A stretch of DNA of 64,000 nucleotides from Lysobacterales bacterium (GTDB taxonomy: Bacteria > Pseudomonadota > Gammaproteobacteria > Xanthomonadales > SZUA-5). The stretch spans positions 62,001 through 126,000 of the forward strand of contig JABAQR010000030.1 in the NCBI GenBank assembly GCA_019187485.1. Direction: 5' to 3'. The position numbers and the translations under genes were made by a program. The notes under the pieces are model-generated. The model worked only from the letters and a program-made list of their open reading frames with translations, was not told the origin of the DNA and ran no database searches. This document shows positions 17,824 through 44,965 of this stretch, one piece after another; position 1 is the stretch's first letter, and the number at the start of each line of letters is the position of its first letter.

Positions 17824-17993
17824 AACAGCGGAGAACAGCGATCCATCTGGGAGGCCAGTGACTGGCCGATGTGGCGCTACGACCCGGCGACGCTAGCTGG
17901 CCCCTTGACCGAAGCCAGAGGTTCCCGGGACTCCTGCTCGGCAGGTTGGCGGATGCAGGCGTGGCGCTGCGCGATCAAGCCAGTCTCGATTTG
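17821..17993 (+). pseudogene. Truncated, frameshifted N-terminus of a Fic-family protein (DUF4172 domain)
   Basis: The frame from ATG 17821 reads IWEASDWPMWRYDPATLAGP then LTEARG, matching the start of the DUF4172 domain that precedes the Fic domain. At about 17917 the frame shifts and the match resumes as LLLGRLADAGVALRDQASL, the next conserved helix. Sequence after about 17993 is unrelated and merges into a dispersed repeat, so the catalytic Fic domain with its HPFxxGN motif is absent. A full-length parent would encode an AMP-transferase-like protein. The combination of shift and truncation makes this a dead gene. Confidence 0.75.
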
Positions 17994-18043
17994 CGGACCG
18001 GCCATCCATGGCCGGCGTTTTATCCTCCGCAGGTCGGACCGCC
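17988..18043 (-). repeat. Partial copy of a dispersed structured element
   Basis: Read on the minus strand, this copy has GGCGG-CCGA-type sequence, then AAACGCCGGCCATGGATGGC, then CGGTCCGCAAATCGAG. It closely matches the first part of the copy at 44797. The CCGGCCAT/ATGGCCGG arms form a hairpin. It starts about 13 bp beyond the stop of the cyclophilin gene on the same strand, much like the 44797 copy behind its gene. The 3' two thirds are missing. Confidence 0.7.
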
Positions 18044-18055
18044 CCGGTGTGGAAC

Positions 18056-19006
18056 TCACTGGCCGGCGCAGACCTCGTTGGTCGGTATGGTCAGGCTTTG
18101 CACCGGAATGACGCCGTCGCCGTAGATCGAGGTGTAGCTGAACACGCCGTTCGCGCAACTGGTGAAACGTACCGTCAATCGTCCCCAGTTCGCGTTGCTG
18201 ACCACCTGGTTCGGACGGAAGGCTGCGCCGAACTGGGCGCCGCTGGTGATCAGCATCGGCACTTCCACCTGATGCGCGCCCCATGCGAAGGGCGCCGCGC
18301 CGATGGTCCAGATCTGACGGCCTTCGAAGAAATCGTACCAGGACACCAGCAGCAGCGGGTTGGCGTCGGTGCCGGCCGCGTGCGCGACCTCGATCAGAAA
18401 GCCCTTGCCGGAGTTGTTGGGGTCATACCATGAGGCGGTGTGCGCGGGCAGGATCGGGAACTCGCCGGCGGCCACCCGTGCGACGCGTCGGACCAGCGGT
18501 ATCCGGATCGGCTGCTCGGAGCCGACGAAAATTGCCGTGGTCGCGATCGTGTTGAGCGTGCGCTGTCCGGAAACCAGTCGCCCGAAGACCGTGAAGTTCG
18601 CATCCAGCGTGGTCGCGTTGTTGCCGGTGTTGATGAAAAAATCGCTGGTGGCGCTGTTGACGTTCGGCGGATTGCCGGACAGCGCCATGGCGATCGTTCC
18701 GGCGGTATTGGACAGTCCGTTGTTGCGTTCGGAAGTGATCGCGGGCCGCTGCGGGATTTCGCTGCCGTTTTCCCTGAAACGCCCGGTCTGCACCACGAAA
18801 CCCGGCACCACCCGCTGGACCAGCATGCCGTTGTAAGCGCCCGAATCCACATAAGCGAGGAAGTTGGCAACGGTGTTCGGTGCGCGTGCGATGTCCAGTT
18901 CGAACAGCATCGGTCCGCGGTCGGTGTCGATCAGCACGCGCGGGTTCTGCGCGTGTACGCAGTTTGCCGCCAGCAGCAGGCAGGCGAGCAGGGTACGCAA
19001 CAGCAT
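18056..19006 (-). CDS. Secreted cyclophilin-type peptidyl-prolyl isomerase with C-terminal WYxP domain
   Basis: The 316-residue protein has a signal peptide (MLLRTLLACLLLAANCVHA) and a cyclophilin domain (about 22-175; VLIDTDRGPMLFELD, FLAYVDSGAYNGMLVQRVVPG, and an FGRLVSG segment), so it should catalyse prolyl isomerisation in the periplasm or outside the cell. A second domain (about 195-305) has SWYDPNNSGKGFLIEV, VSWYDFFEGRQIW and a Cys-containing end. This Trp-Tyr-rich pattern occurs in many secreted proteins of this group; its role is unknown. A GGAG lies 10 nt before ATG 19006. The divergent neighbour at 19129 is also secreted. Confidence 0.87.
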   Translation of the reverse strand: MLLRTLLACLLLAANCVHAQNPRVLIDTDRGPMLFELDIARAPNTVANFLAYVDSGAYNGMLVQRVVPGFVVQTGRFRENGSEIPQRPAITSERNNGLSNTAGTIAMALSGNPPNVNSATSDFFINTGNNATTLDANFTVFGRLVSGQRTLNTIATTAIFVGSEQPIRIPLVRRVARVAAGEFPILPAHTASWYDPNNSGKGFLIEVAHAAGTDANPLLLVSWYDFFEGRQIWTIGAAPFAWGAHQVEVPMLITSGAQFGAAFRPNQVVSNANWGRLTVRFTSCANGVFSYTSIYGDGVIPVQSLTIPTNEVCAGQ

Positions 19007-37824: not shown

Positions 37825-37841
37825 CGGCGAGTCCCGTACGA

Positions 37842-37983
37842 CGGGGGCAGCGACCACCGAGGGTCGATCCGCAATTCGAGTGCGCAAGCGATCGATTCGG
37901 CGCAGCCACTGCCGGACCCGTTCCGGGATCGGGGCAGACAGACGCGTCCGCGAGGGATCGGTCCAGACCCGATCGGTTTTTTC
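37842..37983 (+). repeat. Copy of a dispersed structured element, upstream of tusD
   Basis: This copy shares GCAA-TCGAGTGCGCAAGCG, a GATT-GGCG segment, a CCGGAC segment and a final TCCAGACC-GGTTT-TTCCTGA stretch with the element at 44797. The predicted fold has a head hairpin, a stem CGCAA..TCGA/TCGATT..GCG around GTGCGCAAGCG, a CCGGA/TCCGG hairpin and a terminal hairpin. It fills the gap between the M48 gene and tusD. Confidence 0.65.
37956..37982 (+). terminator. Intrinsic-terminator-like hairpin just before the tusD ribosome binding site
   Basis: GATCGG / CCGATC (37956-37961 and 37969-37974) around TCCAGAC is followed by GG and six T residues (37977-37982). GGAGGT of tusD begins ten bases later, so read-through is needed for tus expression from any promoter further upstream. 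Confidence 0.65.
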
Positions 37984-38004
37984 CTGAGCATGGAGGTCTT
38001 GCGC

Positions 38005-43583: not shown

Positions 43584-44786
43584 ATGAACAAGTTAACCAC
43601 TCTGGCCGTTGCGGTCGCGCTGAGCCTGTCGGGTTCGCTATGTGCCGCCCAGAGCCACGCCGCAGACCGTTCGTACGATCCGGCAACAAGCGATGCCAAG
43701 TCGGCGCAGAGTTCGAGCGACCGGAGCATCTGGCTCGGTGACGACGAGCATTCCTGGGTGTCCGCAGGCGACGTCGGAGCGACGTCGGATGATTTGGCCG
43801 CCGCTGTGGAGGCACTGGTCGATCAACTGACCGACGACGAGCTGGTCATCGAAGTTCAGCGCGACCAGGCAGGCAACAACTGGGCGGTGGTGCTGGGTGG
43901 CTATTGCGAAACCGAATCCAGTTGTGTCCAGTACACGCGCATGGTGAGCCTGGAGGAGCAAGTCTCCGGAGCGGACATCGCCGGCGATTCCGGTGCAGCG
44001 GCCAAGCAGACCGGTCAGCCGCAGCACTTCAAGCTGAGCGTCGTACCCACGGCGCTGCCTTCGGTGGACATGGCCAATGTCGTCGTCCAGGCGCAAGTCG
44101 AGCCTTTCCGTGGCAATCAGCCCAGTCTGGCTGGCGATGCCGATGTTCGGCGGGTACAGCAGGGGCTGGTCGCCAAGGGCATCAGCACGACGGTGGATGG
44201 ATGGTACGGCGACGGCACCACGGCGGCCTACGCGACCTGGCAACGCCGCCTCGGTTACACGGGTCTGGACGCCTCGGGAATTCCCGGACCCGGTTCATTG
44301 GCATCGCTGGGGCAGAATCGCTTCGTCCTCACCAACAAGATCATCGTCGGAGCACGTACGGAGTTCTCCGGCAAGCGGGTCAATGCGCGCACCCGCTCGA
44401 TGCTGTCCGAGGCGCAGCGGTTGTTCGGTCGCACCATCGCCATCACCCAGGGTTCCTACAATGCGGGGGGTGTCGGCGCTTCGGCCGGTACGCACGACGG
44501 TGGCGGCGTGATCGATCTCAGCGTTTCGGCATTGAGCACCACGCAGCGCTGGCAGCTCGTGAAGGCACTGCGCAGGGTCGGTTTCGCCGCGTGGTGGCGG
44601 ACTCCCGCGCAGGGCAACTGGAATGACCATATTCACGCCGTCGCGATCGGCGATACCGACATGTCTTTGTCGGCGCGCAACCAGGTGGCCGATTACTACG
44701 TCGGCAAGAACGGCCTGGCGAATCACGAGGCGGACAACACGCCCTCGGCCTATCGCGTGGCATTCACCTGGTGGGAGAAGTACTGA
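43584..44786 (+). CDS. Secreted peptidoglycan-binding protein with M15-type peptidase fold
   Basis: The 400-residue protein has a signal peptide (LTTLAVAVALSLSGSLCAAQ). A PG_binding_1 domain (about 188-230; ADVRRVQQGLVAKG, VDGWYGDGTTAAYATWQRRL) should hold peptidoglycan. Residues about 300-350 carry GTHDGGGVIDLSV and NDHIHAVAIGD, the H-x(6)-D and H-x-H zinc-site pattern of D-Ala-D-Ala carboxypeptidase (M15) folds. It probably trims or cuts wall peptides. GAGGGAG precedes ATG 43584. A dispersed structured element begins 11 bp after the stop. Confidence 0.82.
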   Translation: MNKLTTLAVAVALSLSGSLCAAQSHAADRSYDPATSDAKSAQSSSDRSIWLGDDEHSWVSAGDVGATSDDLAAAVEALVDQLTDDELVIEVQRDQAGNNWAVVLGGYCETESSCVQYTRMVSLEEQVSGADIAGDSGAAAKQTGQPQHFKLSVVPTALPSVDMANVVVQAQVEPFRGNQPSLAGDADVRRVQQGLVAKGISTTVDGWYGDGTTAAYATWQRRLGYTGLDASGIPGPGSLASLGQNRFVLTNKIIVGARTEFSGKRVNARTRSMLSEAQRLFGRTIAITQGSYNAGGVGASAGTHDGGGVIDLSVSALSTTQRWQLVKALRRVGFAAWWRTPAQGNWNDHIHAVAIGDTDMSLSARNQVADYYVGKNGLANHEADNTPSAYRVAFTWWEKY

Positions 44787-44796
44787 GCTTCTACCA

Positions 44797-44965
44797 GGCG
44801 GCCCGATCCGCGCGGGATGAAACGCCGGCCATGGATGGCCGGTTCGCAAATCGAGTGCGCAAGCGCTTGATTTGGCGAAGTCGATTCCAGACATGCGCCG
44901 GACTCGGCGCGGGCTGGCGAGTTCGGGATGGACTCATCCAGACCGGTTTCTTCCTGACCCCGGGT
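44797..44965 (+). repeat. Fullest copy of a dispersed structured element (candidate small RNA or 3' module)
   Basis: The element has a head hairpin CCGGCCAT-GG-ATGGCCGG (44828-44845). A stem TTCGC-AAATC / GATTT-G-GCGAA closes a GAGTGCGCAAGCGCTT loop. A CCGGACTCG / CGAGTTCGG stem follows (44898-44906 with 44918-44926). The terminal hairpin GGATG-GACT-CATCC (44926-44939) leads into AGACCGG-TTTCTT. Copies occur at 37842-37983 and, partially, 17988-18043. It could also be read as a short ORF (IWRSRFQTCAGLGAGWRV), which is less likely. Confidence 0.7.

Follow-up and report, generated by a model that had tools for sequence, protein, structure and literature searches.

A small mobile element with a conserved four-hairpin RNA core in a Lysobacterales bacterium and its relatives: a possible vehicle for regulator-binding RNAs

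The 64,000-nucleotide stretch of a Lysobacterales bacterium analyzed here (assembly GCA_019187485.1, contig JABAQR010000030.1, positions 62,001 to 126,000), hereafter the window, carries three copies of a small dispersed repeat, two of which lie directly behind the stop codons of protein-coding genes (Table 1). A first-pass annotation had read this repeat as a foldable family acting as a small RNA or 3'-regulatory element, a reading that we found partly supported and incomplete. The three copies that it listed are real, as a covariance model trained on eight copies from the same genome (R1) recovered exactly these in the window, at 146.6 bits (E = 4e-41), 54.8 bits (E = 4e-14) and, for a partial match at 17904-18026 on the minus strand, 21.7 bits (E = 2e-4), the next match having an E value of 0.005. 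The bounds given to the first copy, 44797-44965, were each displaced by about 10 nt, and the element does not begin 11 to 15 bp past the stop codon of the upstream gene, as had been thought, but at the very next base. We establish here a family of mobile DNA with target-site duplications and IS5-like terminal repeats, together with its fold, its conserved loops, its signature of mobility and the IS5-family insertion sequences (ISs) that match it. The known part of this family is a miniature inverted-repeat transposable element (MITE) of BOX-like kind; the unexpected part is a conserved RNA cargo.

The core of the element is a unit of four hairpins (h2 to h5) that spans 112 to 113 nt, counted from the first base of h2 to the last of h5, in most lineages; across relatives, the stems are almost wholly different and the loops are kept. 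In a MAFFT alignment of 19 sequences, 29 of 39 pairs had compensatory changes and 92.0% of cells were paired, with a covariation score of 0.465 compared to 0.162 ± 0.013 after shuffling (none of 500 shuffles reached the observed value); sliding the pairing partners by one column lowered this score to at most 0.108. A second MAFFT alignment, of 22 sequences and built like the first without structure information, had 24 of 32 pairs changed on both sides, again with none of 500 shuffles as high, and a structure-fitted alignment of 61 sequences had 37 of 39. Moreover, the distinct stem changes against the lineage consensus in four active lineages comprised 34 compensated doubles, 14 G.U, 3 A.C and 10 transversion mismatches. 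The excess of G.U over A.C (binomial P = 0.013, in alignments fitted to a model) argues for an RNA of this strand rather than a symmetric DNA palindrome. Altogether, strong covariation across lineages, conserved loops on changing stems and the prevalence of G.U over A.C on one strand support the structured RNA family first proposed, and neither of two outcomes that had been named against it, a lack of further copies and a lack of covariation, was observed.

The loops were surveyed at 58 loci, nearly all of them in different genomes, with one copy taken per locus. Hairpin h2 has a C-G closing pair in all 58 and matches CANGGANG (C-ANGGAN-G) in 53; its loop positions 1 to 6 hold 1.87, 0.26, 1.87, 1.87, 1.78 and 0.73 bits, with A, G, G and A fixed and the two N positions free. 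The first A is also retained in loops with a base other than T at position 6, and a closing A-T pair therefore does not explain it. Mostly a pentaloop, h5 contains GGA in 49 of the 58 loci and CAGGANG in 31, and the two hairpins carry these motifs together in 45; the loops of h3 are of the GNRA type and those of h4 are mostly ACNTGYG. Published sites are RUACARGGAUGU for CsrA/RsmA, an ANGGAN hexaloop for CsrA/RsmE and CAGGA(U/A/C)G for the CsrB repeats (PMC7652899), and CANGGAYG for RsmA (PMC7705225). The loop pattern is our main argument, and from it we infer that h2 and h5 would be read by a CsrA-family protein.

The mobility of the element is apparent in its flanks. In genomes G004 and G007, the element is 152 bp long (149 bp in two copies), without coding capacity or transposase, and identical 4-mers (CTAG, TTAG, ATAG) stand at both ends in 24 of 27 copies (mean of 11.8 and maximum of 20 in shuffles), the variable first base agreeing in all 27. 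The element of G011, again of 152 bp, has other end sequences, and its flanks are identical in 12 of 15 copies (shuffles: mean of 3.4, maximum of 10). These 4-bp duplications, mostly YTAG or YTAA, are of the IS5 type. G011 also carries an IS of ~1.22 kb whose ends (GGAGGGTCTGAACAAG) match those of the element and whose YTAR-type flanks agree in all 13 copies examined, and G004 has one IS with the CTGTTGAGAA-type ends of the G004/G007 element; both transposases belong to the IS5 family, and a PF05598 transposase was not found in six other genomes, including that of the window. In G011 and G021, the h2-h5 unit is tandemly repeated, and the G011 array stands inside one pair of ends. An integron attC-like site was also considered; the duplications and terminal repeats point to IS5 instead. 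At several G004/G007 loci (e.g., L125, L129, L131, L135, and L137), another CTAG-flanked repeat (TGTGGTGTCCCAAAAATAACTGGAATT...) often lies beside or inside the element, which suggests nested insertion at the duplicated CTAG.

The family is widespread. With a core model (R2) trained on members of the order, whose E values are rough, and a threshold of E ≤ 1e-4, matches were found in 105 of the 398 genomes sampled from the order (39 of 98 genera), in 28 of the 369 from the class (25 of 272 genera), and in 37 of the 398 from the phylum, the latter mostly in one family of another class. G004, G007, and G011 have 43 to 51 matches each. An exact-pattern scan of named organisms returned mostly chance matches, with the exception of one Xanthomonadales metagenome-assembled genome. 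Carriage by plasmids or phages was rejected, as the collections of both gave no match to the element, and viral contigs gave none to one exact h4 pattern.

In the window's own genome (3.83 Mb), BLASTN with the window copy gave 46 matches, including itself and seven others below 1e-35, and R1 gave ~40 matches below an E value of 1e-3; the short copies have lost the inner hairpins and kept both ends. At least three subfamilies are present, with an identical h2-h3-h4-h5 order: subfamily A, that of the window, has the ends GGGATGAAAC...GTTTCTTCC plus a 27-nt head; subfamily B (loci L057 to L060) has the ends GGAACCTCTGAACAAC...GTTCAGACCTTCC and, at two of its four sites, flanks that agree fully (GTAG/GTAG and CTTG/CTTG); and subfamily C is found at loci L056, L061, L062, and L064. 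The 3' end, which the first-pass annotation took for a hairpin followed by a T-rich stretch, is indeed T-rich, but it is one arm of a terminal inverted repeat (GGATGAAAC/GTTTCTTCC); a classical terminator was rejected, there being no U-run. A second palindromic repeat, approximately CCCGGATGYTTCATGARGCATCCGGG, adjoins several elements of this genome (flanks of L009, L016, and L032; e.g., CCCGGATGCTTCATGAAGCATCCGGG at L032) and perhaps represents another dispersed family.

Subfamily A has a particular placement. At least 12 of its copies start immediately downstream of a stop codon, TGA in most cases, with the head (44787-44813 in the window) outside the outer stem. These stop codons are natural wherever orthologues were compared (ilvE, a thiolase gene, and others), and the same placement behind such genes means that the proposed link to secreted-protein genes is not general. 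For the IS5-type subfamilies, insertion at stop codons is to be expected in part, since both TAG and TAA occur within the YTAR target. For several copies of the window's genome, orthologous sites free of the element are found in G001, G002, and G004; at one orthologous gene, this genome (L059) and G002 (L088/L245), of the same genus, have the same stop codon occupied by different subfamilies, and G001 and G004 carry no element. Copies of the family are mostly intergenic, often between converging genes. At L025 and L030 in the window's genome and at L109 in G011, proteins with FADGFE/FASGFE-like ends directly precede the elements, and this C-terminal GFE motif is recurrent in these genomes.

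The subfamily A copies of the window appear to be relics from which the RNA constraint has gone, and the subfamily looks dead because its mutations carry no sign of that constraint. Its stem changes (3 compensated doubles, 11 G.U, and 13 A.C) are as expected without constraint, GGA is kept in h2 in only 5 of 9 full copies, and many copies are truncated. The compensating changes that had been noticed between the window copies were not significant inside the subfamily (3 pairs compared to 3.1 in shuffles), whereas across subfamilies and genomes they are overwhelming. The small RNA reading was right in kind for the family, and it probably does not apply to the decayed copies of the window, whose subfamily is apparently free of RNA constraint.

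Table 1. Features of the element copies and adjoining genes in the window
Feature	Position	Strand	Evidence
Full-length element copy, subfamily A: 27-nt head, outer stem, hairpins h2-h5	44787..44957	+	R1 E 4e-41 on 44814-44957; head aligned with ~28 other copies
Outer stem 5' arm GGGATGAAAC, terminal-repeat-like	44814..44823	+	
Hairpin h2, hexaloop AUGGAU, C-G closing; 44830-44837 = CATGGATG, CANGGAYG-type site	44824..44843	+	
Hairpin h3, GCAA (GNRA) loop	44845..44877	+	
Hairpin h4, loop ACATGCG	44880..44908	+	
Hairpin h5, pentaloop GGGAU (GGA retained), C-G closing at 44924-44930	44911..44944	+	
Outer stem 3' arm GGTTTCTTCCT	44945..44955	+	
Second copy, subfamily A, heavily decayed; no stop codon directly before	37838..37987	+	R1 E 4e-14
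Third copy, truncated: head, h2, start of h3	17985..18055	-	BLASTN 9.5e-15 against the 44797 copy
TGA stop of upstream gene, abutting element	44784..44786	+	Translation; at least 11 other copies in the same genome placed alike
Upstream gene, start uncertain: signal-like N-terminus, peptidoglycan-binding domain	43584..44786	+	Pfam PF01471, E 9e-6; translation
Cyclophilin-type peptidyl-prolyl isomerase gene, start uncertain; TGA (18058-18056) abuts third copy	18056..19006	-	Pfam PF00160, E 7e-33

We propose that the element is a MITE mobilized by IS5-family transposases and that its cargo is a Csr/Rsm-type RNA, with a probability of about 60%, the binding of CsrA/RsmA being predicted from the loop sequences. 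In the active lineages, IS5-family transposases would act in trans on the terminal repeats and duplicate the YTAR target. The cargo would be no gene but the conserved ~112-nt four-hairpin RNA, whose first hairpin (ANGGAN hexaloop) and last hairpin (NGGAN pentaloop) would present GGA motifs like those to which the CsrA/RsmA dimer binds. A copy inserted in a transcribed site, often right behind a stop codon, would place this RNA in a 3' untranslated region (3' UTR) or allow it to be cut from one. Once produced, the element RNA may bind CsrA/RsmA, the copies serving as decoys or forming new Rsm-type small RNAs, with a putative benefit to the element or to its host. The definition of a MITE normally rests on its DNA ends, its interior being disposable. 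In this family, the ends vary between lineages while the internal RNA fold and the loops are kept, which implies that selection acts on an RNA carried within a transposable element. RsmW, a small RNA of Pseudomonas aeruginosa derived from the PA4570 3' UTR, binds RsmA with a Kd of 11.5 nM (PMC4950607), and its Rfam model (RF02809) aligns over its full length to two elements with the four hairpins in register (36.5 and 36.2 bits, E ~1e-3). Modest support also comes from csrA, which is present in 28 of 28 element-bearing genomes of the class sample compared to 312 of 369 overall (hypergeometric P = 0.0075; 0.035 for complete genomes).

Several observations weigh against this proposal. Both RsmW matches fall below the Rfam cut-off of 52 bits, so that membership is not claimed, and over 22 genomes the RsmW model found no element above chance and none over the cut-off. 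The stems of the element are long, whereas CsrA sites obtained by systematic evolution of ligands by exponential enrichment (SELEX) favor short stems (PMC7652899). The co-occurrence with csrA is only modest, this gene being common. For subfamily A, no target-site duplication could be demonstrated. Finally, orientation relative to the flanking genes is unbiased in the active lineages (16 copies between +,+ genes and 12 between -,- genes, with a simple gene caller); many copies would thus lack sense transcription unless they have their own promoters, and this speaks against a role in cis.

Part of these data could also come from an ordinary MITE, whose folded RNA would only render insertions harmless or stabilize 3' ends, as proposed for BOX and REP elements, the GGA loops being unrelated to CsrA/RsmA. 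Its mobility is well supported, the intergenic location of most copies suits it, and stable 3' hairpins can protect mRNA (PMC3049150). Nevertheless, stability alone leaves unexplained the near-invariant A, G, G, and A beside variable N positions, as well as the fixed unit length and the order of the four hairpins, and copies of the active lineages show no orientation bias towards the upstream gene; we regard this explanation as unlikely. The hairpins could otherwise be selected as single-stranded DNA, e.g., for recognition by a REP-type (Y1/RAYT) transposase or by some other enzyme that binds DNA hairpins, and would then play no part as RNA. While G.T is tolerated in DNA hairpins too, and while subfamily A copies adjoin a stop codon at just one of their ends and show no duplication, as in single-strand transposition, the active lineages have IS5-type 4-bp duplications and terminal repeats, unlike the duplication-free, target-adjacent insertion by Y1 enzymes. 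Together with the GNRA loops retained in h3 and the first A of the ANGGAN loop kept in h2 when the sixth position is not T, this makes such an origin improbable in our opinion.

As regards subfamily A, its exact placement after natural stop codons could reflect a host-domesticated 3' regulatory element held there, e.g., for termination. However, its stem mutations are neutral (11 G.U and 13 A.C), the GGA of h2 is lost in a large part of its full copies, truncation is frequent, and the U-run of a terminator is missing, so that we give very little credence to domestication.

If the loops do bind CsrA/RsmA, the IS5-mobilized element that we propose would link mobile DNA directly to a major bacterial post-transcriptional regulator and would suggest where Rsm sponge RNAs, among them those released from 3' UTRs, may have come from. 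Our results suggest a role of mobile DNA in dispersing regulator-binding RNAs across bacterial genomes. A tentative and rather doubtful extension would be that of phylum-wide transposable elements with a CsrA/RsmA-binding cargo, in which two docking hairpins would be kept through the complete turnover of stems and ends, multiplied in capped arrays, tuning the global regulator by copy number and repeatedly seeding host Rsm-type RNAs such as RsmW. For annotators, the tested covariance-model core provides access to a family that Rfam lacks and that about one in four of the genomes sampled from the order carries.

CsrB, CsrC, and RsmX/Y/Z are regulated host genes that are not known to be mobile or to have terminal repeats or target duplications. 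These sponge RNAs resemble the element in their repeated hairpin loops with GGA, which follow the same consensus (PMC7652899). RsmW was described as a single small RNA of P. aeruginosa (PMC4950607). No family of Rfam 15 covers the element at gathering score, and we found no prior description of it in the open-access literature. The two hairpins of the gyrA RNA motif (RF01740) align to h4-h5 of two elements (32 to 33 bits, E = 2e-6 and 4e-6, below the 45-bit cut-off); its consensus loop, CAAGAUG, lacks GGA, and this similarity is only a lead. The Xanthomonadaceae small RNA asX1 (RF02235; L260, 204-318) lies ~1.2 kb from an element.

Among mobile repeats, the IS5-family insertion sequences have in common with the elements of G011 and G004 the terminal repeats and the YTAR duplication, although these elements are 152 bp long and without transposase. 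REP/RAYT elements have a single hairpin and no target duplication, and the duplications in the active lineages argue against such a relationship. Similar in kind are QMITE1 and QMITE2 of Coxiella burnetii, gammaproteobacterial MITEs that are the source of the small RNAs CbsR3, CbsR13, and CbsR16; unlike our element, QMITE1 measures 300 to 400 bp and QMITE2 has duplications of 7 to 9 bp, CbsR13 folds into one very long palindrome and not into four successive hairpins, and the QMITE paper does not mention CsrA (PMC5896051). The BOX elements of Streptococcus pneumoniae differ in host phylum and apparently in ends and sequence, and the available sections of their description report no conserved CsrA-type loops (PMC3049150). 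They are likewise small dispersed mobile repeats in which two end modules cap a variable number of internal modules, foldable as RNA and sometimes transcribed, a capped layout that is also that of the G011 array inside its one pair of ends (PMC3049150).
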